A stretch of DNA of 64,000 nt, from NCBI RefSeq assembly GCF_003967175.1, contig NZ_AP018553.1, positions 372,001 to 436,000 of the forward strand, read 5' to 3'. This DNA is from Sulfodiicoccus acidiphilus (GTDB lineage: Archaea; Thermoproteota; Thermoprotei_A; Sulfolobales; Sulfolobaceae). This document shows positions 16,976-63,998 of this stretch, piece by piece. The position numbers and the translations under genes were made by a program. How positions within the stretch are numbered: position 1 is the stretch's first letter; every line of letters starts with the position of its first letter. The notes beneath the pieces are model-generated. The model did no database searches. It saw only the letters and a list, made by a program, of their open reading frames with translations, and was not told the DNA's origin.

Positions 16976-17629
16976 ATGATATTAAAGGCCATACACGACT
17001 TGAGCGCCGAACTCAAGTCGTACATGCCTAGTTGGCCCACTAACCCTTTTCTTGTGGTGGAGCCGGTGGCTTTAGTTCCGAGGGACGGTTACTCCATGGA
17101 GAGATTAGCCGGTCTATCCCACACCGGTACCCACGTGGATTCCCCCGCCCACTTCTTCGAAGGTGGACAGAGCGTCGACGAGCTAGACCTGACTAGGTTA
17201 ATGGGAGAGGGTTACTGCCTGAGGCCCCCACTCAGAGGAAGGGAGATCGGGAGGGAAGAGCTCTCTGGGATCTGGAGACCCGAATACGACGGTAAGATAG
17301 TTCTCCTGTACACGGGTTGGAGCTCGAAGAGGTCATTCACGCGGGAGTTCATGTACAATTTCCCCGGCCTGACTAAGGACGCGGCGGAGTTCCTCGTGGA
17401 GAGAGGTGTGAGAGCTGTAGGGATAGACACATTGAGTGTCGACCCTTACGCTAACGAGAAGTTCGAGGCCCACAAAGTTCTTCTGTCCCACGGAGTTCCT
17501 ATAATTGAGGACTTGAGTAACCTCTCTGAGCTCCAGGAGGGGAAGAGTTACCTCGTTGCGGCCCTCCCCATCAAACTCAAAGGTGGGAGCGGAGCGATGG
17601 CGAGAGTAGTAGCCGTGGAGGTCGAGTGA
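16976..17629 (+). CDS. Cyclase-family metal hydrolase (kynurenine formamidase-like)
   Basis: A protein of about 217 residues with the signature SHTGTHVDSPAHF (His, His and Asp metal ligands), then GIDTLSVDP and the C-terminal ALPIKLKGGSGA. Length is typical for the family, whose members hydrolyse formamides or cyclic amides. The open frame extends upstream to 16937, but the ATG at 16976 starts directly before the conserved first strand (DLSAELKSYMPSWP), so it is preferred. Its stop overlaps the start of the next permease by four bases (GTGA), giving tight coupling. It is a shorter relative of the protein at 4764. Confidence 0.82.
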   Translation: MILKAIHDLSAELKSYMPSWPTNPFLVVEPVALVPRDGYSMERLAGLSHTGTHVDSPAHFFEGGQSVDELDLTRLMGEGYCLRPPLRGREIGREELSGIWRPEYDGKIVLLYTGWSSKRSFTREFMYNFPGLTKDAAEFLVERGVRAVGIDTLSVDPYANEKFEAHKVLLSHGVPIIEDLSNLSELQEGKSYLVAALPIKLKGGSGAMARVVAVEVE

Positions 17630-22729: not shown

Positions 22730-22756
22730 CTTTGTATACGAATTCCTTTTCAGTAG

Positions 22757-22767
22757 AACATATTAAG
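22757..22767 (+). promoter_or_regulatory. TATA box for the crotonase gene
   Basis: ACATATTAAGG, centred about 27 bases before the ATG at 22789. It supports this ATG and not the upstream TTG at 22732. Confidence 0.45.
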
Positions 22768-22788
22768 GTAAAGAAGTCAGAACCAACT

Positions 22789-23559
22789 ATGGAATCTAAG
22801 AACCTAGAGGTTTCGAAACAGGATGGGAAACTCGTCGTGACCTTCAACAGGCCCAACAAGTTGAACGCTTGGAGTGAACAATTGGTAGACGAACTGACTA
22901 CCCTCCTGGAGGAAGCTTCTTTCGACAACGAAATTAAGGTTATTGTATTGACAGGGAAGGGGAAGGCATTCAGCGCAGGAGGGGACCTCGACGAGTTCCT
23001 AGCGTCCACTCCTCAACAGGTAGAGAAGTACAACAGGAAGGTCATTGATCTCTTCAGACTGATGGAGAAAATGAGGAAACCAATCATCGCTGCTGTGAAT
23101 GGTTACTGTAACTTGGAGACTATACAAGCGGTAGATTACGTGTTGGCCTCTACAACTGCTAAGTTCGGACTTCCTGAAATAAACGTGGCGATCAGCCCAG
23201 GCGCAGGGATTCTGGTTCGCCTACCTAGGTTGGTGGGACACCTTAAGACCAAGGAAATAGCGCTATTTGGGGAGTGGATTGACGCTGAAACTGCTGTTAA
23301 GATGGGCCTAGTCAATCGGGTCGTTTCCCCAGAGGAATTGATGAGGGTTGCTGACGAACTCGCCACTAAGCTGGCCTCCAAAGCCCCCCTCACTTTAGGG
23401 GCGATAAAGGCAGTTATAAATAATTCACAGGGTATGGGAAAGGACGAGGCAATGGAGTACCAGCTGAAGGAGAATTCCTCTCTCTTCAATACCGAGGACC
23501 TAAGGGAGGGAATCAAGGCTTTTCTAGAAAAAAGGAAACCCGTCTACAAGGGAAAGTGA
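22789..23559 (+). CDS. Enoyl-CoA hydratase/isomerase family protein
   Basis: A 256-residue crotonase. FNRPNKLNAWSEQL opens the fold and GKAFSAGGDLDEF is the first oxyanion-hole segment. The second segment reads AVNGYCNLETIQAVDYV, which is three residues shorter than the usual NGxAxGGGLEL loop. The Gly-Gly-Gly that supplies the backbone NH of the oxyanion hole is missing. The second Glu position is kept (LPEINVAISPGAGILVRLPR). Activity may therefore differ from a standard hydratase. It is followed 6 bases later by an acyl-CoA dehydrogenase and faces away from the CoA ligase, so the three look like one acyl-CoA degradation module. Confidence 0.85.
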   Translation: MESKNLEVSKQDGKLVVTFNRPNKLNAWSEQLVDELTTLLEEASFDNEIKVIVLTGKGKAFSAGGDLDEFLASTPQQVEKYNRKVIDLFRLMEKMRKPIIAAVNGYCNLETIQAVDYVLASTTAKFGLPEINVAISPGAGILVRLPRLVGHLKTKEIALFGEWIDAETAVKMGLVNRVVSPEELMRVADELATKLASKAPLTLGAIKAVINNSQGMGKDEAMEYQLKENSSLFNTEDLREGIKAFLEKRKPVYKGK

Positions 23560-24971: not shown

Positions 24972-26474
24972 ATGAGAGCAGCGGAGTACGTATTCGCTTT
25001 CGTTAGACTCGCTCGTGCAAAGAAAGTGTTTGGAAATCCCGGGACCACCGAACTTCCCCTACTTAGGCGAATACCAGGAGATATTCAATACGTTCTATCC
25101 CTTCACGACGGACTTGCTGTTGGGATGGCGGAGGGCGCTTTTCTCATATCTGGGAGGCCCCAGTTCGTTAGTCTCCACGGTGCCATTGGGTTATCTAACG
25201 CGATAGGTTACATTCGGAGCGCACTCATGGACAGGGCACCACTTCTGGTGCTTGTAGGTCAACAGCACTCCGAGTTCTTGTCGGACGAGCCTCTTATTTG
25301 GGGGGATATCCTCAAGATAGCAAGGCCGGTCGTTAAGGATGCGTTCGAGGTAAGGACTCCCATTGACGTTCCAAAACTCCTTACCAGGGCGCTAAAAGTC
25401 GCCGTGGCACCTCCATGGGGACCGGCAGTGGTGAGTTTGCCCTTCGATATAGTGGATGAGGACGTGAAGGAGTCCCCTGCCATTCCCACTTTCTCCTTCT
25501 CGATTTTGTGCGAAGACTCTTCAGTTCAGGAGGTCGCTTCTTGGCTCACAGGGGGAAGTAAGGTGGCGATCGTTGCTGGATACGAGGTAGACGTCTACAT
25601 GGCCCACGAGGAGCTTAGGACGCTGGCCGAAAGGATCAGTGCCACTGTTTTCGCTGAACCTAACGCACATCGTTCCCCCTTTTACTCCTCTCACCCCCTC
25701 TTTGAAGGAGATCTACCGTGGGAGGCTGACGAGATGTTGAAGAAACTGTCAGTTTACGATAGAATATTGATTGTGGGGGGGACTCTCAACTTCTTAACAC
25801 CTCCTACTGAAAAGGATTTTAAATTAAACATATTTCAAGTTACGTCTGACCCCGAGGAAGCTGAGAAGAGAAAATGGAACACAATTTGCTGTAACGTTAA
25901 AGAATTCCTCACTAAACTGAATTCTGCTCTCCCAAGAAGTAGCATCAGTCTTAAGATAGAAACGGAGAGACCAAAGCCAGTTGGCACCACAATCATCAAT
26001 TTCCTCGAGGAGTTAGCCTCAAACTCCCAGGATAGGGAGAAGTTCGCCGAAGCCTCGTCTCTAATGGGAGAGATAAGGAGGACCATGGGATATTTTCCGT
26101 CTAGGTTCTTTGGACTGAAGTCGGGTTTATTGGGGTGGAGTCTAACAGCTGCTGTCGGGGCTGCATTGGAGGGGGCAAGGCCTCTAGTACTTATAGGTGA
26201 TGGGGGATTCCATTACAGCTGTCAGTCACTATGGACCGCGTCTAACTACGGCGCCACGGAGCTGAGAGCGGTGGTGTTTAATAACAGAGGTTACGAGATT
26301 CTAAGGAGACATTTTAGGGACGAACCTTGGCTCTCCCCCTTAACTTCACCTTACAAGGTGGCCGAGGCCTATGGGGTGGAAGCGAAGAAGGTTGGACTCA
26401 AAGAGGCGAGTAAGGAAATCAGTTGGTTAGTTAGAGGAAAGGGTCCTAAGCTGCTCCAAGTAGACTTTGCGTGA
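24972..26474 (+). CDS. Thiamine diphosphate-dependent enzyme (benzoylformate decarboxylase/acetolactate synthase type)
   Basis: A 500-residue ThDP enzyme with the usual pyrimidine-, central and pyrophosphate-binding domains. The N-terminus (VFGNPGTTELPLLR) closely resembles benzoylformate decarboxylase, and FVSLHGAIGLSNAIGY holds the corresponding active-site His. The catalytic Glu that activates the cofactor is expected in LHE; here the sequence is VLSLHDGLAVGMAEG, with Asp. The C-terminal domain has LIGDGGFHYSCQSLW and VFNNRGYE, the GDG-N metal/diphosphate motif. It would decarboxylate or ligate a 2-oxo acid. It stands alone, about 285 bases after the acyl-CoA dehydrogenase. Confidence 0.85.
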   Translation: MRAAEYVFAFVRLARAKKVFGNPGTTELPLLRRIPGDIQYVLSLHDGLAVGMAEGAFLISGRPQFVSLHGAIGLSNAIGYIRSALMDRAPLLVLVGQQHSEFLSDEPLIWGDILKIARPVVKDAFEVRTPIDVPKLLTRALKVAVAPPWGPAVVSLPFDIVDEDVKESPAIPTFSFSILCEDSSVQEVASWLTGGSKVAIVAGYEVDVYMAHEELRTLAERISATVFAEPNAHRSPFYSSHPLFEGDLPWEADEMLKKLSVYDRILIVGGTLNFLTPPTEKDFKLNIFQVTSDPEEAEKRKWNTICCNVKEFLTKLNSALPRSSISLKIETERPKPVGTTIINFLEELASNSQDREKFAEASSLMGEIRRTMGYFPSRFFGLKSGLLGWSLTAAVGAALEGARPLVLIGDGGFHYSCQSLWTASNYGATELRAVVFNNRGYEILRRHFRDEPWLSPLTSPYKVAEAYGVEAKKVGLKEASKEISWLVRGKGPKLLQVDFA

Positions 26475-35840: not shown

Positions 35841-37007
35841 TTAGAAAGATCTTGGCAATCCTAATACGTTGTGGGAGACGTAGGCTAGGGTCATCTGTTC
35901 TGGAACAGGACCTACTCTCAAAAGCCTAGCGTTTCGCCAATGCATCTCAACTCCTGTATCCGAGCCGAATGCCATACCTCCGAACGCCTGCATTGCGGCG
36001 TCAGCTGCTAAGAACGCTGCTTTGGCGGTTATGAAGGCCGCGCTATTTGCCTCGAAGGCGGCGTTTTCACCTAAGTCTAACTTCATGGCTGCCTCTTGAG
36101 CCATTCTCCAACCTGCCTCACTTAACATCTTGGCCTCAGCGAGAGGAAACTGAATGGCCTGGTTTGCCCCTATTGGTTTCCCGAACGTCTTTCTCACTTT
36201 CGTATATTCTACAGTTTTATTTATAACGAGTTCCGCAAGTCCGACCCCCAAAGTAGCAGTAGACACCCTCTCAGCGTTTAGAATGCGTGCGAGATTCCTC
36301 CACCCCTCGTTGGGCTTTCCAAGAACCGCTTCCTCTGGGACACTCACATTATCGAAGACTACCTCATATGATCCCAACGACTTCAGAGCAATGTCGTCTA
36401 TCCTAGTACATTTCAACCCCCTGTGAGAGGAAGGATCTAAGAGGAAAAGTGTAAGGGAGTTGGGATCTCTACGATTATTCTCTCCAGTCCTCGCGAGGAG
36501 TATCATCATCCTGGAAACTCCCGCCATGGTTGTCCAGACCTTTCTCCCCGTAATTATGTACTCTCCCGCCTTGTATTCAGCTCTAGTCGTTATGCTCAAA
36601 GTGTCCACTCCCGCCCCTGGTTCCGTAATGGCTACACACGGGTTCGCCGAACCATTCATGATCGTCGGTAAGAACTTCTCCAATTGCTCACTATTTCCCA
36701 GTAGGCGTAGGGGTAAGACGCCGAAGACGTTGTAGGCCATAACTAGGTCTCCAGCATCCATGCTGGTGGAAGTTGTCAGGGTCCTGAGAACTTTTAGATA
36801 GTCCTTCAGTTCCAGTCCCAAACCACCCAACTCCTTCGGTAGCAGGAGGTAGTTGAGGCCGGCGTTCCTAACAGCCTCCATGAACTCGCTGGGGAAGAGG
36901 GCTTGTTTATCGTGTTTAACCCAGTAAGATTCTGGGAAAGATTTCGACAATTCCCTCGTGGCGTCCAACATCAGTTCAAGTGTCTCACTGTCGTACAAGT
37001 CTCTCAC
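35841..37007 (-). CDS. Acyl-CoA dehydrogenase
   Basis: A 388-residue acyl-CoA dehydrogenase, intact. AITEPGAGVDTLSITTRAEY and VWTTMAGVSRMMILLARTGE are the FAD/substrate loops of the middle beta-domain. The C-terminal helical domain has RKTFGKPIGANQAIQFPLAE and QAFGGMAFGSDTGVEMHWR. It oxidises an acyl-CoA to the 2-enoyl-CoA. It starts with a GTG whose bases overlap the TGA of the molybdenum hydroxylase gene, so the two are translationally coupled. This combination is unusual, because the hydroxylase normally couples to FAD and 2Fe-2S subunits. A small adapter gene is not present. Confidence 0.9.
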   Translation of the reverse strand: MRDLYDSETLELMLDATRELSKSFPESYWVKHDKQALFPSEFMEAVRNAGLNYLLLPKELGGLGLELKDYLKVLRTLTTSTSMDAGDLVMAYNVFGVLPLRLLGNSEQLEKFLPTIMNGSANPCVAITEPGAGVDTLSITTRAEYKAGEYIITGRKVWTTMAGVSRMMILLARTGENNRRDPNSLTLFLLDPSSHRGLKCTRIDDIALKSLGSYEVVFDNVSVPEEAVLGKPNEGWRNLARILNAERVSTATLGVGLAELVINKTVEYTKVRKTFGKPIGANQAIQFPLAEAKMLSEAGWRMAQEAAMKLDLGENAAFEANSAAFITAKAAFLAADAAMQAFGGMAFGSDTGVEMHWRNARLLRVGPVPEQMTLAYVSHNVLGLPRSF

Positions 37008-45435: not shown

Positions 45436-46800
45436 ATGTCAGATGTAAGCGGAGAAACAGAAGTTCTACTCCGTATGGAAAGGTTCAAGACGTGGCCTTG
45501 GCCGTTTTCCTACCTAGCCATGGTCGGTCTGGCTTACTTTTTCGGGCTCATGGACGTCTTAACTATAGGGATTGCCGCCCCAGCCATAGCTGCCACTTTC
45601 GGCGTGAGCGCAGCGCCCCTAGCGGCGCTAGGTGGTACGCTCAGTCTAGTGGGTTACGTCATTGGCGCACTTGGCTTCTCCCACATAAGCGACGCCTACG
45701 GGAGGAGAGCGGGCCTGACGATCACGCTCATTTCCTACTCAGTTGGCTCGCTGTGGACGGCCCTTTCCCCTAACGTTATTAACGTCTATGCGTCTAGGCT
45801 CTTAACGGGGGTGGGAATAGGGGCAGACCTGGCTATAGCGGCTGCCTACCTGGGAGAACTCTCCCCACACGGCGTTCGAGGAAGATTTCAGAGTTTCGGA
45901 ACTTTCCTAGGTTTCGTAGGAGCCGGAGTAACCCCCTTCATAGGCCTCCTCATAATACCCGCCTTCTCTTGGGGGTGGAGACTTTTCTTCGTGATAGGCT
46001 CCTTAGGGGCGTTAAGTCTCCTTTACATAAGGAGGGTATTGCCAGAGAGTCCGCGTTGGCTGATTTCTAAAGGCAGAGTGGAGGACGCCAGCCGGATTGT
46101 CTCGAAAGCCGAAGAATTCTACAAGAAGAAATATGGTGTTCTCCCACCCGTGGAACAGTCTGCCTCGAAATTGGCTATTGTGAAGGGGGGTAAAGTTCCC
46201 ACGTTGTCGTTGGTGACCGATAGGAGGTACTTGACGAGGCTTGCCATACTCCTTCCAGTCTTCGTTCTCTACTACATTTACACTTACCCTTACCTAGTCC
46301 TTACCACCTCGTTTCTCTCTGCCGCCGGTTACACAATTGCGAGCAGTCTCCTGATTCCTGGAATAGGGGGGTTCGGCTTCGCGCTAGGTGCTTTCCTCTC
46401 CTACGTTTTCTCGGATTACATTGAAAGGAAATACCTGATCTCGCTTCTCCTCTTCATTCAGGGATTAGCCATGTTCGCCATAGGGATAAAGGGACCAGTC
46501 CCAGAGGAGGTAGGAGCTTACTTCCTCGCGGCGTTCTCTAACACGTTCCTGGCTACGGCCCTTTACATATATGCGGTAGAGAACTTCCCGACCAGAGCGA
46601 GAAGCACAGGTGTGGCCTTCACTGACGGGCTTGGGCACATCGGTGGTATATTCTCGCTTCCCTTTGCCCTCTCACTGTTCCTCTCTCTTGGCTTTTCACC
46701 GACTTACTACATCCTCGGCGCGTTTGCCTTGGTGGCAGCAGCGGTAGTCCTGCCTGGTATACTGTCTACAAGGAGAAAATTAGAGGAACTCACGGATTAG
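45436..46800 (+). CDS. MFS transporter (metabolite:proton symporter type)
   Basis: A 454-residue MFS protein with about 12 helices. After helix 2 it has SHISDAYGRRAGL, the MFS signature. The end of the first half carries VLPESPRWLISKGR, the PESPRWL motif of sugar- and aromatic-acid-proton symporters. LSYVFSDYIERKYL is the second-half counterpart, and ENFPTRARSTGVAF lies before helix 11. It is placed in the cytoplasmic membrane. The substrate is unknown; an aromatic acid or other metabolite would fit the genes around it. Followed by mobile-element sequence. Confidence 0.88.
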   Translation: MSDVSGETEVLLRMERFKTWPWPFSYLAMVGLAYFFGLMDVLTIGIAAPAIAATFGVSAAPLAALGGTLSLVGYVIGALGFSHISDAYGRRAGLTITLISYSVGSLWTALSPNVINVYASRLLTGVGIGADLAIAAAYLGELSPHGVRGRFQSFGTFLGFVGAGVTPFIGLLIIPAFSWGWRLFFVIGSLGALSLLYIRRVLPESPRWLISKGRVEDASRIVSKAEEFYKKKYGVLPPVEQSASKLAIVKGGKVPTLSLVTDRRYLTRLAILLPVFVLYYIYTYPYLVLTTSFLSAAGYTIASSLLIPGIGGFGFALGAFLSYVFSDYIERKYLISLLLFIQGLAMFAIGIKGPVPEEVGAYFLAAFSNTFLATALYIYAVENFPTRARSTGVAFTDGLGHIGGIFSLPFALSLFLSLGFSPTYYILGAFALVAAAVVLPGILSTRRKLEELTD

Positions 46801-47511: not shown

Positions 47512-47520
47512 TTTATAGGA
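47512..47520 (+). promoter_or_regulatory. TATA box for the thiolase-fold gene
   Basis: GTTTTATAGG, about 26 bases upstream of the GTG at 47542. Confidence 0.5.
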
Positions 47521-47541: not shown

Positions 47542-48753
47542 GTGCCGGCGAGTAGAGCAGCAATAGTTGGGTACTCGATAATTAAACCTTCTAGGGCGAG
47601 GAAGGACAGGGGAGAGGAAGTCCTCTCTACCGAGCAGTACCAAGCCCTTGCCCTAACGTCAATTCTAGGGAGCCTAGGTTTGGCTAAGAGAGAGTTGAAC
47701 TCCATGAGATTTCTCCTAGGATTGAACCACCCTCTTTGGCCTCACGCCTTGATATATTCCTCTGAGGTCGCAAGTAATTTGGGGTTGAGTCCGTCTCTCT
47801 CGATAGTCTCAGATCACGGAGGAATGTCGGCTCTCCACCTATTAGTGGAGGCCAGTTTGGCCGTGTCTCTAGGAGAGGTTGAGATAGCTGTCCTAATAGG
47901 TGCGGACTCCCCCCTCACACCTGCCACACCCATGGGTAAATGGAGACTCGATCGTACTTGGAGGTACGAGTTGAACTACGAAATACCCCTGGGAATGATA
48001 GGCCCCATTAGTGAAGGAGGTCTCCTTGCAACCAGGTACATGAGCCTCACTGACCTCAAACAGGAGCACTTGGGAACATTCGCTGTGGCCCTGAGGAGAA
48101 ACGCTCAACAAAATCCCTTCGCCTATTTAAGGGAGCCGTTGAGTTTGGACGAGTACATGAAGAGCCCATACATAGCTTACCCCCTCAGACTATTGGATGC
48201 CGTCATTCCGGTAAACGGAGCTTTCGCACTCGCGGTAACTTCCGAGGAACTGGCCAAGAGGTACACGCCCAATCCAGTCTACGTAAGAGGACACGCCATA
48301 AGGGTTAACGCCGAACCGGAGAACGAACTAAGGGAGGTCACCGACCTCAAAATGAGAGACGTCGCTGAAGAGGCGCTAAGGAGGGCTGGCCTGAGAATGA
48401 GGGAAATAGACCTCTTTCAACTTTACGACGACTTCACCGTAGTCCCGTTACTACAGATGGATTCTCTAGGTCTCTTAGGGGAAAGCTCCATAGGAAAGTT
48501 CGTGGAAAACACGGACTTCACGTACGCTGGGAACCTTCCAGTGAACACTGGGGGAGGCCAACTCTCCGGAGGACAGGCAGGAACTGCTGGAGGCTTCGGG
48601 TTGATAGTGGAAGCTGTGAAGCAGTTAAGGGGGGAAGCGGAAGGACGACAAGTGAAGGGGGCTAGGAACGCGTTGATCACGGGATTGGGGGGCCTGGGTT
48701 ACAATAACAACTTACTAAACAAGGGAGTTCTCGTTATCTCGAACGAGAAATGA
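47542..48753 (+). CDS. Thiolase-fold protein without the catalytic cysteine (Ltp2/SCP2-like)
   Basis: A 403-residue protein of the nonspecific lipid-transfer/SCP2-thiolase branch. The loop that holds the nucleophilic Cys in thiolases reads VSDHGGMSALHLLVEA, with no Cys, and the GHP motif near the C-terminus is GGGQLSGGQAGTAGG, with no His. A Tyr is present in LFQLYDDFTVVPLLQMD where thiolases have His or Asn. Together with the DUF35 gene downstream this resembles the Ltp2-type aldolases, which use tyrosine and form a complex with a DUF35 protein to split CoA thioesters. I infer a retro-aldolase or other lyase, not a thiolase. GTG start. Confidence 0.8.
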   Translation: MPASRAAIVGYSIIKPSRARKDRGEEVLSTEQYQALALTSILGSLGLAKRELNSMRFLLGLNHPLWPHALIYSSEVASNLGLSPSLSIVSDHGGMSALHLLVEASLAVSLGEVEIAVLIGADSPLTPATPMGKWRLDRTWRYELNYEIPLGMIGPISEGGLLATRYMSLTDLKQEHLGTFAVALRRNAQQNPFAYLREPLSLDEYMKSPYIAYPLRLLDAVIPVNGAFALAVTSEELAKRYTPNPVYVRGHAIRVNAEPENELREVTDLKMRDVAEEALRRAGLRMREIDLFQLYDDFTVVPLLQMDSLGLLGESSIGKFVENTDFTYAGNLPVNTGGGQLSGGQAGTAGGFGLIVEAVKQLRGEAEGRQVKGARNALITGLGGLGYNNNLLNKGVLVISNEK

Positions 48754-48762
48754 ACTTTTATA
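48754..48762 (+). promoter_or_regulatory. TATA box for the DUF35 gene
   Basis: CTTTTATAC is centred 26 bases before the ATG at 48784, directly after the stop of the thiolase-fold gene. The DUF35 gene can therefore be transcribed on its own as well as with its neighbour. Confidence 0.45.
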
Positions 48763-48783
48763 CCCGAAGGATGTCAAAGCTGT

Positions 48784-49194
48784 ATGGCGAGCCAGGAACT
48801 ACCCTATCCGGAACTCGATCCTATAAATCAAAAGTACTTCGATGGGCTGAAAGATGGTGCCTTGCTCGTTCAAAGGTGCGGCGAATGCGGAAACTTCCAA
48901 TTTTATCCTAGGCCCATTTGTGTTAGATGTGGCAGTTTAAATTTGGAATATAAAAAAGTGTCTGGGAAGGGAAAGGTCTACTCGTACGTGATAATCCACA
49001 GGGTGATATCGAATTCTGAGTACTTCAAGAAGATGGTTCCCTACGCTGTGGTCTCTGTCGAACTAGAAGAGGGAATTCGGGTTTACGGACTCTACGTCGG
49101 AGAGGTCAGTTCCCTTAGCGTTGGCAAGGAGGTGAAATTCAAACCATACTCCATACCGTGGGGTGTGATTCCAGCCTTTGAGTCGCTCGCCTGA
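48784..49194 (+). CDS. OB-fold/zinc-ribbon DUF35 protein
   Basis: A 136-residue Zn-ribbon-OB-fold protein. RCGECGNFQFYPRPICVRC gives the CxxC...CxxC zinc site near residue 40, and the following GKVYSYVIIHRV and PYAVVSVELEEGI form the OB fold. Such proteins bind thiolase-fold partners and channel acyl-CoA substrates. It is 30 bases after the cysteine-less thiolase-fold gene, supporting a complex. Confidence 0.87.
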   Translation: MASQELPYPELDPINQKYFDGLKDGALLVQRCGECGNFQFYPRPICVRCGSLNLEYKKVSGKGKVYSYVIIHRVISNSEYFKKMVPYAVVSVELEEGIRVYGLYVGEVSSLSVGKEVKFKPYSIPWGVIPAFESLA

Positions 49195-52712: not shown

Positions 52713-53576
52713 ATGAGACCTAGACCTTTCTCGTATCGTGCTCCAACCACCCTGAAAGAAGCAGTGGAGATACTTTCGAAGGACGAGGACTCAAAAGCGA
52801 TGGCTGGAGGGCAAAGCCTACTGCCCATGATGAAATTGAGAATCATAGGACCGTCCACGATCGTATCTCTCTCCAAGGTGGCGGAGCTGAAACCCCACGT
52901 AACCGTGTCGGGAGAGACCGTTAAGATTGGAGCCCTGACCACACACGACGCAGTGAACAGGAGCCCAGACCTGAAGAGGTATGCTCCGTTATTGAGCGAA
53001 GCGGCCGGCCACATAGCTGACCAGCAAATAAGGAACCGTGGTACAATAGGTGGTAACATTTCCCACGGCGATCCAGCCTGCAACATGGCGACCGCCCTAA
53101 CCGCCCTCGACGCCACTGTTCACGTAACTGGGCCTGAGGGTAAGAGGACGATCCCAATAAGGGACTTCTTCGTCGATACACTAGTTACCTCTCTAAGACA
53201 GGGCGAGGTGGTGACGGATGTAGAGGTGCCTGTAGCTAGGCCAGGCACGAAGCAGAAGTTCGTGAAGATTTCCAAGACCGCTACGTCTTGGCCCATGGCC
53301 ATGGTTGGAGTGAGTGTAGAGCTCTCGCCCGAGAGGAAGGTTGAGAGAGTCTCGATAGCACTGGGAGTGGCCGCCAACACACCCGTTAGGGCCACCAAGG
53401 CCGAGGAATACCTTATCGGAAAGGTGTTGACTGAGGAAGTCGTTAAAGTGGCAGGAGACGTGGCTACCGATGGACTTACTCCTCCCTCTGACCTGCACGC
53501 CTCTTCCGAGTATAGGAGGCAACTCTTGAGGGTGCTAGTGCGGAGGGCCCTTTCGACGGTAGGTGAGGTGAGTTGA
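52713..53576 (+). CDS. FAD-binding medium subunit of a molybdenum hydroxylase (CoxM-like)
   Basis: A 287-residue FAD subunit. [16 protein letters not shown] is the first FAD motif (standard form), and [18 protein letters not shown] the second, with TIGG at the pyrophosphate. The C-terminal flavoprotein domain continues to the end. It overlaps the start of the 2Fe-2S gene by four bases, giving a tightly coupled operon. Confidence 0.92.
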
Positions 53577-54079
53577 GCTTGGAGAAAGCGAGGATAGTGG
53601 AGAAAGTGAAGGTCTCCGTGAAAATAAACGGTAAAACCTACGAGGGACTCGTCGAGCCGCGTATGTTGCTGGTGGACTTCATAAGAGACGTGGCCGGACT
53701 TAAGGGAACTCACATAGGCTGCGACACCACCAGCTGTGGCGCATGCACCGTGCTGGTGGACGGAGTGTCAGTGAAGTCCTGCACAATGCTGGCGGTGGAG
53801 GCAGACGGTAGGGAGGTGACCACAGTCGAGGGTCTCAGTAGGGACGGGAAGCTCCACCCACTCCAGGAGGCCTTCTGGAGGAATCATGCTCTCCAGTGCG
53901 GCTACTGCACTCCTGGAATGCTTATGTCGGCCTACTTCCTCCTCTCAAGGAATCCAGACCCCACTGAGGAGGAAATAAAGGAGGCGATAGCAGGGAACAT
54001 ATGCAGGTGCACTGGTTACATTCCAATCATAAGGGCCATAAAGGAGGCTTCGGTAGAGATGAAGGGGGGGAGGAAGTGA
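53573..54079 (+). CDS. 2Fe-2S small subunit of a molybdenum hydroxylase (CoxS-like)
   Basis: A 168-residue protein with two [2Fe-2S] domains: [16 protein letters not shown] (plant-type ferredoxin cysteines), KSCTML, then CGYCTPGML and ICRCTGY. The fold and length match CoxS. Overlaps both the upstream M gene and the downstream L gene by four bases (GTGA). Confidence 0.93.
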
Positions 54080-56495
54080 GCACCGAGGCTACCTCCGAAA
54101 CACAGGAGTTTAAGTGGATAGGAAAGCCGGTGAGAATCAGGGAGGATCTCCTATCACTGACGGGAAAAGGTAAGTACATAGACGATTTGGACTTTCCAGG
54201 GGCACTCTACTTAGCCTATGTTAGATCTCCTTACGGCCACGCGAAGATAAAGAGGATCGACGCTTCTAACGCCATGGCGCAGGAGGGCGTGGTAGCCGTA
54301 TTTACTGGAGAAGACGTCAGGAGGGAACTTAACCCGTTCCCACAGATCCCTAAACCTCCTGCTGGAAACCTCCTCGATTACCCCCTCGCCGTAGATAAGG
54401 TAAGGTATTATGGCGAGCCGGTTGCGGCCGTTGTGGCCAGCAGCAAATATGTGGCCGAGGATGCAGCCGAGTTGGTTGACGTGGAGTACGAGAAGCTCCC
54501 AGCAGTAGTGGACCCAGAGGAGGCCCTTGAGGGAAAGGTGTTAGTGCATGAGGAGGTGGGCTCCAACGTGGTGTGGGAGGGCCTCTGGGACCTAGGAGAG
54601 GTAGATAAGGCCTTTCGGGACGCCGAGGTCAAATTTGAGGAGAAAATAACCTTCCACAGGTACGCCTCGGTTCCCCTGGAGACGAGTGGAGTAGTGGCCA
54701 CGTACGACGAGGCGACCGATTCGTTTGTTATATACAGCAACAACATAATGCCCGTATTCACCGTGCCTTTAGTGGCCACCGCTTTGAAGACTCCCCCTTC
54801 CAAGATAAGGTTCGTCGTGCCCCCAACGTTGGCGGCTCGTTCGGAGGGAAAATAATAAACTACACTCACATGACCCTCCTCGCCTTCATAGCCAAGAAAC
54901 TCAAGGCCACCGTGAAGTACGTGGAAACTAGGTCCGAGAATATAGCATCTGGTACCCACAACAACGAGAGAGTGTTTTACGTCAAGGTGGCAGCAAACAA
55001 GGAGGGTGTAGTAAAGGCAATAGACGTAAAGGCCATAGACAACTGCGGCGCATATCCCAGGTATGAGCCCGCGGGCGCTGTAATATGGAGCCAAGTCACC
55101 CCAGGAATATACGGGGTGAAGAACGTTAGGGTGAGATTCGTACAGGTGACAACGAACAAGGGACCGACAGGGCCTGTGAGGGGATACTCTAGACTGCAGC
55201 ATAATTTCATGTGGGAGAGGGTTATGGATATGCTCGCGAGGAGGCTCGGTCTAGATCCGGCTGAAGTTAGGTTAAGGAACTTCATACGAAAGGAAGAGAT
55301 GCCTTACAAGGGGCCTTCCTACGCCATTTATGATGGAGGGGATTACGTTGGGGCCTTCCGCAAACTCTTGGACGCCCTCGACTACGCTAAGTGGAGGAAG
55401 GAGCAGGAGGAGGCTAGAAAGACTGGAAGGTACATCGGAATTGGGTTTAGTTCCGTGATCGATTCCGGAGCTAATAACTTCGGTCAGGTGAAAATAATTA
55501 ACAGGGACTTCCCGGTCTCAGGCAATTCTGAGGCCGCAATGGTGATGGTAGATCAGGTAGGAAATATAGTGGCCAGGATAGGGGCCACCGACACTGGACA
55601 GTCTCACGCCACCACCATGGCACAGATAGTTGCCGAAGTGTTCGACGTAGATCCGTCAGAAGTGCAGGTAGAGATGGGATTTGACACTCTGTCAGGTGTG
55701 TGGGCACAGCACTCGGGAGCCTACGCTAGCAGGAGCGCAGTTCTAGCAGGGAGCGCAATCTACATGGCCGCAGTCAGATTGCGCGACAAAATGATCAAGA
55801 TAGCCTCCCATCTCTTGAACGAAAGTCCCTCCAACCTCGAGGTAAGGGGTAAGAGAATAGTCTCGAAGTCCTCTGGAAAGGAGGTGTCCTTCGACAGGAT
55901 AGCTACCGTGGCTTGGTCAGACGTGATGTTCCTTCCAGAAGGTATGGAACCAGGATTAGTTAGTCATTACGTCTATAGGCCAGACTTCATTTACAACCTA
56001 CCCGACGAGAAGAACAGGATCAACAATACCCTCACTTACTCTTACACAATGCACGGTACGGTTGTGGAGGTAGACCCCGAAACCATGACCGTAAAGATCC
56101 TTAAGCACGTTGTCGTGTCGGACCCTGGCGTAATGATAAATCCGTTAGTGGTGGAGGGACAAGAGCTCGGGGCCACAATGCACGGAATAAGTGCCGCCCT
56201 GTATGAGGATCTGGTCTACGACGCTGAAGGGGTGTTACTTTCCTCTACGTTTTACGACTACATGCCTATAGGGGCCAAGGAAATGCCCACTGTCGAGCTC
56301 CTTCACTCTGTCACTCGCTCTACAAGCTCTATGTTGGGTGTAAGAGGTATAGGAGAGGGTGGAGGAGGTCCGATAGGATCCATAGTCAACGCGGTTGAAG
56401 ACGCCCTCACTCCTCTCGGGCTGAGATTAAGGAGGTCTCACATAAACTCAGCGGAGCTGTACGGCATGCTGTCCTCTCACCCTGGGGGTTCGTAG
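54076..56495 (+). pseudogene. Molybdopterin-binding large subunit, M-S-L operon, frameshifted
   Basis: The frame from 54076 stops at 54855 and resumes from about 54826 in the next frame; together about 806 residues. The small domain has WIGKPVRIREDLLSLTGKGK. Restoring one C at the run of five C at 54820-54824 gives PPNVGGSFGGKIINYTHM, the family's GGSFG. The core has TDTGQSHATTMAQIVAEVF and the C-terminal VRGIGEGGGGPIGS with the conserved Glu. The loop over molybdenum reads GPTGPVRGYSRLQHNF, so neither the form I AYxCSFR nor a clear form II motif is present; CO oxidation is therefore unlikely. It is the only complete M-S-L set in the window. Confidence 0.88.
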
Positions 56496-57107: not shown

Positions 57108-58294
57108 TCACCTAATGTTTAAGTTGTATAACTTCCTCATGACCTGCCTCACCACTATCATCCTCTGGATGAGGTTAGTACCCTCGTATATAGTCGTGGT
57201 TTTGGCGTCCCTCAGCAACCTCTCCACCGGCGTGGAGACCCCGTACCCCCGTGCACCTCGATCGCCCTGCTCGCCGCCCTCTCCGCGACCTCCGTGGCGT
57301 AGAACTTCGCCATGGACGCCGCCACCACCCCGTCCTGGAGGTTCCCCCTGTCGAGGAGGGAGGCGGCGAAGTAGGTGAGCAGCCTCGCCGCGGCCACCTC
57401 CGCCATCGCGTCGGCCAACCTCTCCTGGACCATCTGGAAGGAGGCCACGGGCTGGCCGAAGGCCTCCCTCTGGGAGGAGTAGGAGAGGGAGGCCTCCAGG
57501 GCCGCCTGGGCGAGGCCCACCCCCTGGGCGGCCACCGAGACCCTGCTGTAGTCGAACGCGAGCATGGTCTGCTTGAAGCCGTTCCCCTCCTCCCCCACCA
57601 GGTTCCCCTCCGGGACCCGCACGTCCTCGAAGAGGAGCTGGGCCGTGTTTGACGCCCTGACGCCTGAAGTCTCTATCCTCCCCTCCACCTTGAAACCGTG
57701 CTCCCTCGAGGCGAGGAACATGGATATCCCCATCCACCTCCTCTCCCCCTGGGAGGTCCTGGCTGTGACGAGGAGCCTGTCCGCAATCCCCCCGTTCGTG
57801 ACGAAGGTCTTCCTCCCGTTTATCACGTAGTGCGACCCGACCTTCCTGGCGGTGGTCCTCATCCCCGCGACGTCGGAGCCCCCGGAGGGCTCGGTGTTGG
57901 CGAAGGCCACCACCGCCCTCCCGGAGGCGACCTCGGGCAAGTGCTCGGAGCGAAGCCTCTCGGAGGCGAACCTAACCATGGGAACGTTGAAGAGCCAATA
58001 ACCGAAGACGTGGGTCGAGAGCGACGGCCATACTCTGGAGATCTCCTCTATTGTTATGGCCTGCGACAATAGATCGGCCTCCTGTCCTCCATATTCCCTA
58101 GGGACGTTCATTCCATATATCCCGGCCCGAGCCAACTCACCTCTCACCTCCGGCGGTATCGCCATCTCCCTCTCCCCCTTTTCCACGTAGGGCCTGACCC
58201 TGCTCTCGCACAGTTCCCTGACCGACTGCCTGAGTAACTCGTGCTCCTCCCTCAACTCCACCTTGAAGTCCTGAGGAGAAAACGGTAAGGTCAT
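57108..58294 (-). pseudogene. Acyl-CoA dehydrogenase, frameshifted and GC-mosaic
   Basis: Two frames combine to about 395 residues. The N-terminal domain (GELARAGIYGMNVPREYGGQ) leads to ANTEPSGGSDVAGMRTTARK and FVTNGGIADRLLVTARTSQG, the FAD/substrate region. QREAFGQPVASFQMVQERLA and AIEVHGG(Y)GVSTPVERLLRD form the C-terminal domain, and TTTIYEGTNLIQRMIV the end. The break is at five C at 57246-57250 (plus strand); one more restores the length. The codons from about 57245 to 57965 are far richer in G and C than the ends of the same gene. Confidence 0.88.
57245..57965. other. GC-rich island inside the acyl-CoA dehydrogenase gene
   Basis: Counting 60-base lines, G+C is about 68-78% over much of 57301-57540 and 57841-57960, against about 53-57% just upstream in the same gene (57961-58140) and less in its last 120 bases. 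The edges are abrupt and inside the coding frame. The sense strand is nearly all G or C at third positions. This suggests replacement by a high-G+C relative, or extreme codon bias. Confidence 0.7.
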
Positions 58295-58965: not shown

Positions 58966-59376
58966 GTGGAATATAAGTCAACGAGGCATGTGAAATACCT
59001 ATGCAACTATCATTTCGTATGGGTTCCTAAGTATCGTAGAGGCATATTAATCGACGAAGTAGCTGAATACACTAAAGAGGTCTTGAAATCGATTGCTGAA
59101 GAGTTAGGTTGTGAAATAATGGCCCTAGAAGTAATGCCAGATCATGTACACCTCTTCGTAAAATGCCCACCCAGATACTCACCATCATACCTAGCAAACT
59201 ACTTCAAGGGGAAGTCAGCCAGACTAGTTTTGAAGAAGTTCCCAGATTTGAGAAAATACACGGGAGGAAAACTCTGGACTAGAAGCTACTTCGTATCGAC
59301 AGCCGGAAACGTATCAAGCGAGACAATAAGGAAGTACATTGAGGAACGATGGGTGAAAGAAGGTGAAGAGGACTAA
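58966..59376 (+). CDS. tnpA: IS200/IS605-family transposase TnpA (Y1-HUH)
   Basis: A 136-residue single-strand transposase. PDHVHLFVKCPP near residue 64 is the HUH metal-binding motif, and STAGNVSSETIRKYIEERW near residue 115 carries the catalytic Tyr. NYHFVWVPKYRRGIL opens the fold. It cuts and rejoins single-stranded DNA at the hairpin ends, acting as a dimer. It starts with GTG at 58966 and overlaps tnpB by 14 bases. It appears intact and could also act on the short elements that have similar terminal hairpins. Confidence 0.95.
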   Translation: MEYKSTRHVKYLCNYHFVWVPKYRRGILIDEVAEYTKEVLKSIAEELGCEIMALEVMPDHVHLFVKCPPRYSPSYLANYFKGKSARLVLKKFPDLRKYTGGKLWTRSYFVSTAGNVSSETIRKYIEERWVKEGEED

Positions 59377-60672
59377 CGTGGTTAAACTCGTTATAGACAA
59401 GGACACCCACGAGAAGCTCAAGGAACTAGCTATAGTGACTGCCAAATGCTGGAACGAGGTAAACTGGTTAAGAATGCAACAGTTCAAGAAAGGGGAGAGA
59501 GTAGATTTTGCTAAAACTAAAAAGAGGTTTACGAGAAATATAAGCATGTGTTAAAGGTTAATGCACAGCAAGTGGCTAGGAAGAACGCTGAGGACTGGAG
59601 GAGCTTCTTCTCGCTAATTGAGGAAAAGAAGGAGGGTAAACTACCAAAGTGGTTCAGACCAAGACCTCCAGGCTATTGGAAGGACGAAAATGGGAAATAT
59701 AAGCTGATTTTCATCATTAGGAACGACCGTTACGAGGTGAACGAAAGCGAGAGGACCATCTATTTGAAGGACTTTAAACTCTCTCTGAGGTTTAAGGGGA
59801 AACTTAAGTGGTGTGGAAAGCTAGGTAGGCTTGAGATTCACTACGACGATGCCAGGAAAGCTCGGTATGCACATATACCTGTTGAGGTGGAGAGCACTGT
59901 GGAGAGCAGGGGGAGCTTAAGGGCTTCAGTGGACTTGGGAATTGTTAATTTAGCCACCGTTTATGTTGAGGATGGTAAGTGGTATATTTTCAAGGGTGGT
60001 GGTGTTCTCTCTCGATACGAGTATTATGGTAAGAGGACAAGTGAGGTTCAGAAAGTTTTGGCTAGGCATGGGCAAAGGAGGGGTAGGAAGCTTAAATTGC
60101 TTTACGATAAGAGGAGGGGGTTCTTAAAACACGCGTTAAATAGCATGGTTAGGAAGATAATGGAGGAGTTAGGACAAAAGGGGGTAAGTGAAGTTGTTAT
60201 AGGTTATCCTAGAGAGATTAGTAGGAACCACGGCAACAAACTCACTGTAAACTTCTGGAACTATAGTTATGTCGTTAAGCGTTTTGAGGAGATTGGGGAG
60301 GAATTAGGGATTAAGATTGTTAGGGTGAACGAGTCTTACACTTCTAAGTCTTGTTCCCTGTGCGGGGAAGCCCACGAAAGTGGGCGTATTAAGCGTGGTT
60401 TGTTCAGGTGTCCCCGCATGGGGAAAGTTATAAATGCGGATTTGAATGGGGCGATAAATATTCTACACATCCCCGAGTCTCTAGGATCTGGGAGTGGAGG
60501 GCAACTCCCAGTGAGGGATAGGGGTAACGGACCGAAGGCCCGGCCCGTGGTCCACCTCTGGACGAACGGAGCGGGGTGGGTGCTATTAGCACCCACCAGC
60601 TATGAAGCGATGAAAATGAAGGCGGTAAACCACGAACCTATGATCCGCCCTAAGGGGACCCTCGCCCTTTAG
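59363..60672 (+). pseudogene. tnpB: TnpB RNA-guided nuclease, frameshifted
   Basis: Two frames combine to about 436 residues. The N-terminal frame has KRTNVVKLVIDKDTHEKLKE; the main frame then gives the RuvC-I motif ASVDLGIVNLATVYV, VVIGYPREISRNHGNKLTVN at the RuvC-II position, the zinc ribbon SCSLCGEAHES and FRCPRMGKVINADLNGAINI with the RuvC-III Asp. The tail RPKGTLAL overlaps the right-end hairpin. Only three of four zinc cysteines are present, as is usual in this subfamily. Adding one T to TTT at 59528-59530 restores F-Y-E-K-Y-K-H-V-L-K and a length divisible by three. It may still be active if this is a sequencing error. Confidence 0.9.
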
Positions 60673-61678: not shown

Positions 61679-61722
61679 AACTTTTTACCATTTCCTTCTA
61701 CGCCATTGCCGAGGTGAATTCC

Positions 61723-62823
61723 ATGAGGGTCGGATTGGTATCTTATGGCTTCTCAGGGTTCGCTCCTTCTGTCTCAGACAAGAGCTTCAGGGAGATGACC
61801 TTCGAGGCGGCCTCTAAGGCCTACGCGAAGGTCGGACTCAATCCGAGGACTGACGTCGATGCTTTCGTGTCCTGCAAGGAGGACTTCTGGGAGGGAATAT
61901 CAATAACAGACGAGTTCGCCCCGGACCAACTGGGAGGTGCACTTAAACCAGTCTTCACCGTTACCGGGGACGGTCTGTTGGGCATCGTAAACGCATATAT
62001 GATGATAAGGACAGGCGCCTTCGACGTTGTGGTGGTGGAGGCTCACGGGAAGCCCTCGGAAGTGAAGTCCTACGGGGACGTGGAGCGTATGTCCCAGGAC
62101 CCCATATATGTCAGGCCCCTTAACTTCCCAAACTATCACAGCGTCAAGGCCGTGGAGGCCAAGGCGTTCATGCGATCGGCCAAACTAACGAGGGAGGACT
62201 TGGGGCTGTACGTCTCCCAGACTAAGAGGAACGGGCTCTTAAGCTCAAGGGCTCCTCACGCCTCTGACCTTTCCGTAGACGCTTACCTGCACGAAGAGCA
62301 GGTGCTCGGTCCCTTATCAGAGAGCGATCTCGCTCCCAGGACAGATGCCTCGTTGGTGTTCGTGGTAGCCTCTGAGGCCAAGGCCAGGGAACTCTCTGGC
62401 TCGCCGGTTTGGTTAATGGGCGTGGGGTGGGCGTCGGACTACCACACTCCATCGTACAGGAACCTAGAGATCGACATGTCAGCTAGGAACGCGGCGAGGA
62501 TGGCCTTCAAGCTCGCTGGGATAGAGGACCCCAAGAGGAAGCTAGGGTTCGCGGAAGTCGACGAAAGGTATAGCTTCGTGGCCCTTCGGGATCTGGTCTC
62601 AATGGGACTGGTAGACGACGTTAGGAGTGCGTTGAATGGAGGAGATCTGTCTAGAGAGGGCAGTCTCCCCGTGAACAGGAGGGGAGGTGCCCTCAGCGAG
62701 GGCCTTCCTCTGGAGGCCCATGGGTTAGCGAGGCTCGCTGCGGCGTGCGACCTCTTAGATGGTGTAGGAGTGGTGGTTAGTGGCACGGGGAACACGACCG
62801 CAGTAGTGGTGGTGACGCCTTGA
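61723..62823 (+). CDS. Thiolase-fold protein without the catalytic cysteine
   Basis: A protein of about 366 residues of the SCP2/Ltp thiolase branch. MRVGLVSYGFSGFAP opens the first half. The nucleophile loop is FTVTGDGLLGIVNAYMM, with no Cys, and the C-terminal loop is RRGGALSEGLPLEAHGLARL, where GHP is absent. The ATG at 61723 is preferred over the GTG at 61714 because GAGGTGAATT, a ribosome-binding sequence, lies just before it. Probably a structural or lyase partner in a heteromer with the next gene, which overlaps it by four bases. Confidence 0.78.
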   Translation: MRVGLVSYGFSGFAPSVSDKSFREMTFEAASKAYAKVGLNPRTDVDAFVSCKEDFWEGISITDEFAPDQLGGALKPVFTVTGDGLLGIVNAYMMIRTGAFDVVVVEAHGKPSEVKSYGDVERMSQDPIYVRPLNFPNYHSVKAVEAKAFMRSAKLTREDLGLYVSQTKRNGLLSSRAPHASDLSVDAYLHEEQVLGPLSESDLAPRTDASLVFVVASEAKARELSGSPVWLMGVGWASDYHTPSYRNLEIDMSARNAARMAFKLAGIEDPKRKLGFAEVDERYSFVALRDLVSMGLVDDVRSALNGGDLSREGSLPVNRRGGALSEGLPLEAHGLARLAAACDLLDGVGVVVSGTGNTTAVVVVTP

Positions 62824-63998
62824 GGCCAAACGTAAATGTGAAGAATAGAGTTGCTGTCGTAGGGGCTGGGCTCACCCTATTCAGGAGGAGGCTCCTGGAA
62901 ACTCCACAGGAACTAGCTTGGATCGCCGCCAAGCAGGCCCTGCAGGAGGCTGGTCTGGACTTCAAGGACGTGGACTGCGTTGTTAGCGGGAGCGCTCCAG
63001 ACGCCTTCGACGGCGTCCACATGAAAGGTGAATACTACGTCGAGGGTGTGGCCGACGGGAAGCCTCACGTCAGGGTCTACGTGGGCGGGGGGACTGGTGT
63101 GTTCGTTCCCGTTGCAGCCTGGTGGCACGTAGCGTCTGGACTGTGTAAGAGGGTGCTGGTCCTAGCGGAGGAGAAGATGAGCTCTGCCGCTCAGCCCCAC
63201 CCTCAAGCGGTGTTCAAACACATATGGGATCCTCTAATCGAGAAACCACTCAACCCGAACTTGATATGGATCTTCGCCATGGAGATGCACAGGTACATGT
63301 ATAGGTGTGGCGTCAAAAAAGAGGACATAGCGCTAGTGTCCGTGAAAAACAAAAGAAATGCCCTAGACCACCCCTCGGCTCAGGCTGCGGGCAGGATCAC
63401 TGTTGAGGACGTGCTTAACAGTGAAATGTTAGTGTACCCAGTTAACAGGCTCGACGTATCTCCTGTGTCAGATGGGGCGGCGGCCCTAGTCATGGTATCC
63501 GAAGAGTGGGCCAACAGGCTCACAGACAACCCGGTTTGGGTCGAGGGTATCGGGTTCAACTTGGATTCCACCAACTGGACCAATAGGGACCTCTCTTTCC
63601 CAGTTTACGTGAGAAGGGCCGCGGAGATGGCCTATAGGTTAGCCGGAGTAACTAACCCAGCGAAAGAGATAGACGTGGTTGAACCCTACGACCCCTTTGA
63701 CTACAAGGAGCTCCACCACATGGAGGGACTTGGGCTCTGTGCTCCTTGCGGGGCCGCCAAGTTGACGAGAGAAGGACTGACACAGAGGGACGGCGAGCTT
63801 CCCACCAGCCCTAGCGGCGGATTACTTGGAGTAGGGAATCCTATAGCGGCAGCGGGACTGATGAAGGTGGCCGAGATCTTCTGGCAACTGCGAGGTGAGG
63901 CCGGGGCAAGACAGGTAAAAAAGGACGCGGTGACTGGACTGGCCCAGGCCTGGGGGGACCTTATGCAAGTTGGGACAGTGGTGGTGATGAGGAGGTGA
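62820..63998 (+). CDS. Thiolase-fold protein without the catalytic cysteine (Ltp2/SCP2-like)
   Basis: A 392-residue thiolase-fold protein. KNRVAVVGAGLTLFRRRLLE starts the fold and CVVSGSAPDAFDG follows. At the position of the nucleophilic Cys it has VGGGTGVFVPVAAWWHV, without Cys. VDVVEPYDPFDYKELHHMEG has Tyr in the place of the usual catalytic His/Asn. The C-terminal loop is SPSGGLLGVGNPIAAAG, with N instead of H in GHP. The TTG start overlaps the stop of the preceding gene. It ends two bases before the window ends; a DUF35 gene may follow. Confidence 0.82.
   Translation: MRPNVNVKNRVAVVGAGLTLFRRRLLETPQELAWIAAKQALQEAGLDFKDVDCVVSGSAPDAFDGVHMKGEYYVEGVADGKPHVRVYVGGGTGVFVPVAAWWHVASGLCKRVLVLAEEKMSSAAQPHPQAVFKHIWDPLIEKPLNPNLIWIFAMEMHRYMYRCGVKKEDIALVSVKNKRNALDHPSAQAAGRITVEDVLNSEMLVYPVNRLDVSPVSDGAAALVMVSEEWANRLTDNPVWVEGIGFNLDSTNWTNRDLSFPVYVRRAAEMAYRLAGVTNPAKEIDVVEPYDPFDYKELHHMEGLGLCAPCGAAKLTREGLTQRDGELPTSPSGGLLGVGNPIAAAGLMKVAEIFWQLRGEAGARQVKKDAVTGLAQAWGDLMQVGTVVVMRR

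Follow-up and report, generated by a model that had tools for sequence, protein, structure and literature searches.

A cysteine-free thiolase-fold protein and its DUF35 partner

We analysed a stretch of 64,000 nucleotides (hereafter the window) from the 2,353,189-base genome of Sulfodiicoccus acidiphilus (contig NZ_AP018553.1, positions 372,001 to 436,000). The study concerns two genes of this window, one for a thiolase-fold protein, named here the YDD protein after its Tyr295-Asp296-Asp297 motif, and one for a DUF35 protein (Table 1). A preliminary description of the window had pointed out that the first protein lacks both the nucleophilic cysteine (DHGGMSA) and the GHP histidine (SGGQAGTAGG) of thiolases, that it has a tyrosine in LYDDFT, and that the DUF35 gene follows after 30 bases. 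Each of these features was recovered, with both open reading frames as described. Indeed, Gly94 stands at the nucleophile site, Gln345 at the histidine site, and the tyrosine is Tyr295. The protein contains no cysteine at all, so that there is no thiolase nucleophile, and none of its six histidines stands at a thiolase catalytic position.

The YDD protein matches the Pfam family Thiolase_C_1 (PF22691; E 1e-34). Its partner matches zf-ChsH2 (PF12172) and OB_ChsH2_C (PF01796), both above the cut-off, and its zinc site is a standard C4 motif (C-x2-C-x10-C-x2-C). The best match of the partner was the DUF35 partner of CtSal, the Sal side-chain aldolase of Comamonas testosteroni. Because a TTTATA box lies 21 to 24 bases before both start codons, each gene may give a separate leaderless message: the position of the first box suggests that the YDD transcript is leaderless, and the DUF35 gene may have a promoter of its own. 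A scan for bacterial-type promoters and terminators gave no signal above shuffled sequence.

Table 1. Positions of the genes and sequence elements in the window. L-numbers designate loci of relatives.
Feature	Coordinates	Strand	Remarks
TATA-like box TTTATA	47512..47517	+	24 bases 5′ of the YDD GTG start
Cysteine-free thiolase-fold protein (candidate YDD aldolase)	47542..48753	+	GTG start, 403 aa
Gly94 codon	47821..47823	+	thiolase nucleophile Cys position; CtSal Gly89 by alignment
Asn256 codon	48307..48309	+	30/30 YDD rows, none in the other groups compared
Tyr295-Asp296-Asp297 codons	48424..48432	+	Tyr295 = CtSal Tyr302 / TcLtp2 Tyr294; Asp297 = CtSal Cys304
Gln340 codon	48559..48561	+	CtSal Gln347 by alignment
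Gln345 codon	48574..48576	+	CtSal Gln352, Ltp2 Tyr344, thiolase GHP His
TATA-like box TTTATA	48757..48762	+	21 bases 5′ of the DUF35 start
DUF35 partner protein	48784..49194	+	136 aa; zinc ribbon C32-x2-C-x10-C-x2-C49 plus OB fold
Flavin adenine dinucleotide (FAD) and [2Fe-2S] subunits, CoxMSL/xanthine-oxidase-type molybdenum (Mo) enzyme	52713..54079	+	Pfam
Mo-cofactor subunit in two frames	54001..56495	+	pieces 54001-54855 and 54870-56495; 44-50% identical to archaeal YDD-adjacent subunits
Crotonase (enoyl-coenzyme A (CoA) hydratase)	22732..23559	+	65% identical to crotonase of the L048 YDD cluster
Crotonase	7239-7994		
Acyl-CoA dehydrogenase	35841..37007	-	40% identical to that of an archaeal YDD cluster (L044)
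Acyl-CoA dehydrogenase	57212-58294		
MFS transporter	45436..46800	+	59% identical to transporter beside the L048 YDD cluster

Fold and active-site residues

By sequence, the best match of the YDD protein in the PDB was CtSal (9myr; E 1.7e-37). An AlphaFold2 model built from 60 sequences had a pLDDT of 89.4 and a pTM of 0.92, with residues 130-151 poorly defined. CtSal was also the top Foldseek match of this model and its top row in VIA-align (Z 49.8, root-mean-square deviation 2.8, 381 residues aligned), followed by 6esq (48.6), 7yvy (48.0), 7pyt (47.2) and TbSLP (46.9) and, lower, by Ltp2 (6ok1; 45.6). The first 27 rows (Z 42.8-49.8) all represent the SCP-2/DUF35 branch of the thiolase fold. 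The YDD protein therefore belongs to this branch of the thiolase-fold superfamily. Since the differences in Z are small, the fold alone does not decide the chemistry.

In the published account of CtSal, Tyr302 acts as the base and Cys304 as the acid, Gln347 and Gln352 are proposed to support Cys304, a glycine replaces the thiolase nucleophile, and the oxyanion hole is proposed to consist of Gln161 plus Gly391 (PMC12329534). The same account gives Tyr294 and Tyr344 as the catalytic residues of TcLtp2, and describes Tyr302 as essential in Sal and the equivalent tyrosine as essential in Ltp2 (PMC12329534).

The YDD protein was aligned with CtSal and with canonical thiolases. At all three thiolase sites another residue was found, Gly94 for the nucleophilic cysteine, Tyr295 for the first residue of [HN]D-x-F and Gln345 for the GHP histidine; the [H/Y]D-x-F site as a whole reads YDDF. 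Thiolases of the SCP-2/DUF35 type (6esq, 7pxp, 7yvy) have the same overall fold and, in several cases, a DUF35 partner, but they keep the nucleophilic cysteine, H-D-x-F and the GH motif, as do the canonical rows from the same genome and from other archaea. We considered an ordinary thiolase with a displaced cysteine, as many bacterial YDD members carry a cysteine one residue past the nucleophile position (GGCSA). The residue at this place is Met, Ala or Thr in the 16 archaeal YDD rows, and the GHP histidine is missing. For the window protein, which has no cysteine, the sequence rules this explanation out, and its overall probability is negligible.

The preliminary description had assigned the protein to the Ltp2 type, and the alignment was checked for the Ltp2 tyrosine pair. 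Only the first tyrosine is kept, Tyr295 being aligned with Tyr294, the base of the YDHF motif. The second, Tyr344, corresponds to Gln345, and His296 of YDHF corresponds to Asp297. TcLtp2-ChsH2 (6ok1) thus has the fold, the first catalytic tyrosine and a DUF35 partner in common with the YDD pair, but the YDD pair lacks a MaoC hydratase fusion and the YDD protein falls in a separate group of the tree, on the side of Sal. With the second tyrosine missing and the tree position apart, membership in the Ltp2 type was rejected, and we regard an aldolase working with a tyrosine pair as very improbable. In contrast, the Sal trio Tyr302/Gln347/Gln352 is kept as Tyr295/Gln340/Gln345, and CtSal also shares the glycine at the nucleophile site, the GQ-x-G-T-A-G-G loop and the DUF35 partner. 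The differences from CtSal are Asp297 in place of Cys304 (YDCY) and Pro155 in place of Gln161. As read from the alignment, the thiolase residues are missing, the Ltp2 pair is incomplete, and the Sal set is changed at these two positions only. The label Ltp2-type is therefore to be replaced by a Sal-side YDD clade with Asp for Cys.

The Sal and YDD systems also differ in their partners. The DUF35 part of Sal is a C3H1 zinc domain fused to a MaoC hydratase (Shy), whereas the YDD-associated DUF35 is a separate C4-zinc protein. Another thiolase-fold protein with an OB-fold (DUF35-type) partner is IpfD-IpfE of plasmid pIBU218. Work with mutants and biochemistry is reported to tie this pair to removal of the side chain from ibuprofen-CoA, a reaction on a hydroxylated aryl-CoA that is termed a retro-aldol cleavage (PMC9195938, PMC6063337). 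We rejected IpfD as a same-type precedent: because it has YDAF and an Ltp2-like second tyrosine (GFYLQ), and groups with Ltp2, the parallel is functional only. TbSLP and a YDSF group of Sulfolobaceae resemble the YDD protein in lacking the nucleophilic cysteine and in having a Tyr-Asp motif; the Asp297 position is occupied by Ser in the YDSF group and by Cys in TbSLP, whose motif is given as YDCF (PMC12329534).

Conservation among relatives

No match at E 1e-60 was found in 59 other related genomes, the own genome aside. Among 398 Thermoproteota genomes, seven others contained relatives at 40-45% identity, the next rows reaching only E 4e-46. All seven relatives carry YDD[FY], GG and GQAG; their genomes represent two families and are not independent. 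A scan of 84,980 species genomes with patterns that included YDD[YF] gave 72 YDD loci, 16 archaeal and 56 bacterial, among which at least six of the seven Thermoproteota genomes recur. The nearest relatives came from 'archaeon isolate B26' (58%), Marsarchaeota G2 (57%) and a Thermoplasmatales metagenome-assembled genome (MAG) fragment (52%). The other loci came from MAGs of Caldarchaeum, Pelearchaeum, Calditenuis, Nitrososphaerales and Thaumarchaeota, from one Ferroglobus MAG and from many Proteobacteria. No relative was found in viral contigs.

Tyr295, Asp296, Asp297, Gln345 and Asn256 are invariant across 30 diverse YDD rows, so that the equivalents of CtSal Tyr302 and Gln352 are present in 30/30. 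Among the columns conserved in YDD rows, Asn256 and Asp297 are the only ones both invariant and absent from the 24 outside rows used for comparison (pl_L122, own_L005 and own_L007 being left out). As 22 of the 30 rows of the trees and of this comparison come from the 72-locus scan, in which YDD was part of the patterns, Asp297 is there partly by selection. The window protein, the seven archaeal relatives (7/7 YDD) and 11 plasmid relatives were not selected for the motif; the plasmid relatives, chosen regardless of it among the 30 matches listed of 521, comprise seven YDD, two YDC and two YDA proteins.

This conservation bears on the idea of a catalytically dead scaffold, or of a partner of another thiolase. 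Such a role would agree with the loss of the canonical thiolase residues and with a report that other DUF35 proteins bridge enzymes (PMC12329534). Five residues kept over 30 diverse rows speak against it, and so does the rarity of a second thiolase-fold gene, seen in the available sequence of only 5 of the 72 loci and 4 to 7 kb away. We judge this explanation improbable.

In a tree of 55 rows, the 30 YDD rows fell on one side of a branch with support 100/99. The three Sal rows form another clade (100/99). When the three motif regions were removed (57 rows), archaeal and bacterial YDD proteins still formed a clade (99/97). Its sister was the YDSF group, from Sulfolobaceae plus two further archaea (98/92); Sal joined next (99/94). 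Ltp2, IpfD, the pIBU218 lipid-transfer protein, 4u4e and a Polaromonas protein constituted a different group (92/81). The row own_L007, too divergent, was excluded from the trees.

The members of the YDSF group (L002, genome positions 1539435-1540469, and L015-L026) also carry GQPA[YF]MSG and lack the nucleophilic cysteine. The group is present in the own genome and in 12 of the 18 genomes sampled from its family (E 1e-30). All seven annotated plasmid copies of the YDD protein that were examined are named 'thiolase family protein'. On a catabolic plasmid of Cupriavidus oxalaticus (L123), the YDD and DUF35 genes, a CoA ligase gene and a ring-hydroxylating dioxygenase gene lie about 5 kb from tfdA; a 96% identical copy of this YDD protein occurs on plasmid AY365053 of Cupriavidus pinatubonensis JMP134 (hit H33).

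Gene neighbourhoods of the YDD genes

The surroundings of the 72 YDD genes were searched with reference proteins taken partly from the same loci. Because 24 of the 72 loci have less than 6 kb of sequence on one side, the counts are lower bounds. A DUF35 gene on the same strand within 1.5 kb is nearly constant (69/72 loci; archaea 14/16, bacteria 55/56). A CoA ligase gene was found nearby in 44 loci (archaea 3/16, bacteria 41/56) and a crotonase gene in 36 (4/16 and 32/56). Within 6 kb, an acyl-CoA dehydrogenase gene was present in 30 loci (9/16 and 21/56), some aldehyde-oxidising gene in 28 (12/16 and 16/56), and a MaoC hydratase gene, searched with one reference, in none of the 72. At L082, an aldehyde-dehydrogenase-family gene, outside this aldehyde-oxidising count, stands two genes before the YDD gene.

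The clusters of the seven archaeal relatives were assigned by Pfam for L044 and by BLASTP to L044 for the others. In all seven, a Mo-cofactor subunit (793-809 aa) is encoded directly upstream of the YDD gene, preceded in six by an acyl-CoA dehydrogenase (not in L041). The DUF35 gene directly follows the YDD gene in six (not in L047), and a 4HBT-type thioesterase gene follows in three of the seven. Whether distances of 2, 3 or 5 kb were used, a Mo subunit resembling aldehyde oxidoreductases accompanied 7/7 YDD genes versus 1/38 other thiolase-fold genes (Fisher p 1.8e-7, kinship uncorrected). The comparison covered 113 Mo-subunit rows and 51 of the 52 thiolase rows, the last being a piece of a split gene. 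At 8 kb the latter count was 3/38, one of them at 5.2 kb (G102, contig 28). The clusters of the two nearest relatives, L048 and L049, have FAD subunit, 2Fe-2S subunit, DUF35 and YDD genes in this order. Then follow genes for an FAD-linked oxidase (other strand), a CoA ligase, a cyclase, a permease and a crotonase (Pfam on L048).

The active-site cysteine loop of form I carbon monoxide (CO) dehydrogenase reads AYxCSFR. Compared with this motif, no such loop is present in the neighbour Mo subunits: those of the seven archaeal relatives read GPNRGF[SA]R, and that of the window reads GPVRGYSR. The multiple CoxL copies of Caldarchaeales have been read as pointing to possible CO oxidation (PMC10547907); one copy stands beside the YDD gene, which suggests that at least this one has a role other than CO oxidation. 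Sal acts in the degradation of bile acids, where its aldehyde product is then oxidised; in the published assay Sal is coupled with Sad, a steroid aldehyde dehydrogenase (PMC11321319). Sal genes stand in a context with Shy and Sad, YDD genes with crotonase and the Mo enzyme instead. By this analogy, the archaeal clusters look like the Sal logic with a Mo enzyme for Sad and a crotonase for the MaoC hydratase.

Other CoA-dependent chemistry at the same site, by a decarboxylase, a C-C hydrolase or a Claisen-type condensing enzyme with Asp297 as base, was weighed against these neighbourhoods. Several chemistries exist within the thiolase superfamily, and TbSLP is reported to decarboxylate malonyl-CoA weakly (PMC12329534). 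Moreover, UbiD genes lie within 6 kb in 17/56 bacterial loci and thiamine pyrophosphate (TPP) enzyme genes in 13/56 (none of either in the 16 archaeal loci), so that substrates differ among clusters. However, the crotonase, acyl-CoA dehydrogenase and aldehyde-oxidising neighbours suit aldol cleavage, and the nearest relative of proven function, Sal, has aldolase activity and is reported not to decarboxylate malonyl-CoA (PMC12329534). We consider such chemistry unlikely.

Some further candidates were dropped. The absence of 3-hydroxyacyl-CoA dehydrogenase (found in 1/72 loci with one reference) had been considered as an argument; in the seven archaeal genomes the remaining thiolase-fold genes have none nearby either, so that this argument has no discriminating value. 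A fusion of the YDD protein with DUF35 or crotonase was rejected: in L014 a start codon lies inside the long frame, and the long frames of L093, L098, L103, L114 and L118 match none of 23 reference proteins. Regarding the DUF35 partners, zinc cysteines are missing in many bacterial ones (e.g. L062:9110-9565, L073:9173-9589), C4 being kept in 18 of 43 clustered DUF35 proteins. In an alphaproteobacterial YDDY-P subgroup the DUF35 domain seems to be encoded at the N-terminal end of the following gene, for which the annotation is short-chain dehydrogenase/reductase (SDR) oxidoreductase, so that a DUF35-SDR fusion is likely in L040 (11074-12321) and L126 (4083-5183), and in L121 (about 7203-7550) it lies in an unannotated gap extending into an SDR gene.

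A candidate acyl-CoA retro-aldolase

The preliminary description had proposed a probable aldolase acting with DUF35. The lack of cysteine, the first rank of CtSal in the sequence, Foldseek and VIA-align comparisons, and the match of the partner to the DUF35 of CtSal all support this proposal. We therefore consider it fairly probable that the YDD protein acts as an acyl-CoA retro-aldolase, being the catalytic subunit of a complex with DUF35. Its products would probably be an aldehyde and a shortened CoA ester, formed from a hydroxylated acid bound to CoA. The neighbour genes fit a sequence in which the substrate would be dehydrogenated, hydrated and cleaved, and the aldehyde oxidised. A degradation route with aldol cleavage, as proposed earlier, remains plausible; that cleavage would be its end is not what the neighbourhoods of relatives suggest, as aldehyde oxidation would follow.

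In the mechanism that we propose, acyl-CoA dehydrogenase and crotonase would produce a 3-hydroxyacyl-CoA, whose CoA arm would occupy the thiolase-type tunnel. Tyr295 would remove the proton of the β-hydroxyl, and cleavage of the Cα-Cβ bond would release an aldehyde (or ketone). Asp297, aided by Gln345 and Gln340, may then protonate the CoA enolate to give acetyl-CoA or propionyl-CoA. DUF35 would hold and stabilise the dimer, as in Sal and Ltp2. The aldehyde would be oxidised by a Mo aldehyde oxidoreductase, or by an aldehyde dehydrogenase in some bacteria.

Several observations weigh against this assignment. Variants C304A, C304S and C304H of CtSal are reported to have no detectable activity, and their authors consider the thiol specifically required (PMC12329534). 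The oxyanion-hole residue Gln161 aligns to Pro155, and the Gln340 position is Leu in 3/8 archaeal YDD members. No measured activity of any YDD member was found in the open-licence PMC literature. In 40 of the 56 bacterial loci, no aldehyde-oxidising gene was found within 6 kb by the references used, and the Mo-subunit adjacency in related archaea may be one ancestral event. In the window itself, the dehydrogenases and crotonases lie about 8 to 40 kb from the YDD gene: they are present, as the preliminary description said, but not next to it. The L048 CoA ligase gave no match in the window. The Mo subunit changes frame at a short C run (near 54819-54824), where the sequence of relatives runs on uninterrupted. 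PacBio reads were used for the genome assembly, and the published genome description counts 244 pseudogenes (PMC6647314). With at least three catabolic genes split between frames in a PacBio-only assembly, the catabolic route may have decayed in this genome, or the assembly may be wrong.

A broader reading, to which we give somewhat less than an even chance, is that YDD proteins form a third catalytic type of DUF35-bound acyl-CoA aldolase. It would rely on Tyr and Asp as a pair, assisted by Asn256 and Gln345, and would occur in archaea and Proteobacteria, unrecognised because its members are named thiolases. In archaea, together with a Mo aldehyde oxidoreductase, it would make up an 'aldolytic β-oxidation' (hydrate, cleave, oxidise) that could do without 3-hydroxyacyl-CoA dehydrogenase and thiolase. 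If so, some Caldarchaeal 'CO dehydrogenase' genes would encode aldehyde oxidases of the YDD route, and aldehyde versus CO oxidation by several archaeal CoxL-type genes becomes testable. Sal and Ltp2 have been described from bacteria that degrade steroids. Should YDD proteins prove to be aldolases, this kind of reaction extends to archaea and to many catabolic clusters unlike those for steroids, and a large group of 'thiolase family proteins' is misannotated. They would also offer a natural comparison for the claimed strict thiol need of Sal.

Other genes of the window

The relevant catabolic genes nearest to the YDD pair are those of the Mo oxidoreductase subunits (52713-56495), and the role of the window Mo subunit would be aldehyde oxidation after cleavage. 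Most genes searched from the L048 and L044 clusters have homologues in the window, but scattered; the L044 thioesterase has no match there. Identities are 52% and 42% for 2Fe-2S subunits, 40% and 34% for FAD subunits, 44-45% for the Mo subunit, 33% for the cyclase, and 39-50% for the FAD-linked oxidase, in two pieces. Like the Mo-subunit gene, the FAD-linked oxidase gene (19199-20526) and an acyl-CoA dehydrogenase gene (about 23566-24686) are split between frames, with breaks near 19600 and 23900.

Two adjacent thiolase-fold genes at the end of the window (61714-62823 and 62820-63998) are without canonical residues (DERY, YDPF), with a DUF35-type match just past the window end. An IS200/IS605-type pair consists of a Y1 transposase gene (58966-59376) and an OrfB/TnpB-like gene (59548-60672). 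The window also contains genes for a kynureninase-like aminotransferase, a TPP enzyme and amino-acid permeases (9522-10637, 24972-26474, 15052-16923, 17626-19233), which indicate a broader catabolic island whose substrates may be aromatic acids or acids derived from amino acids.

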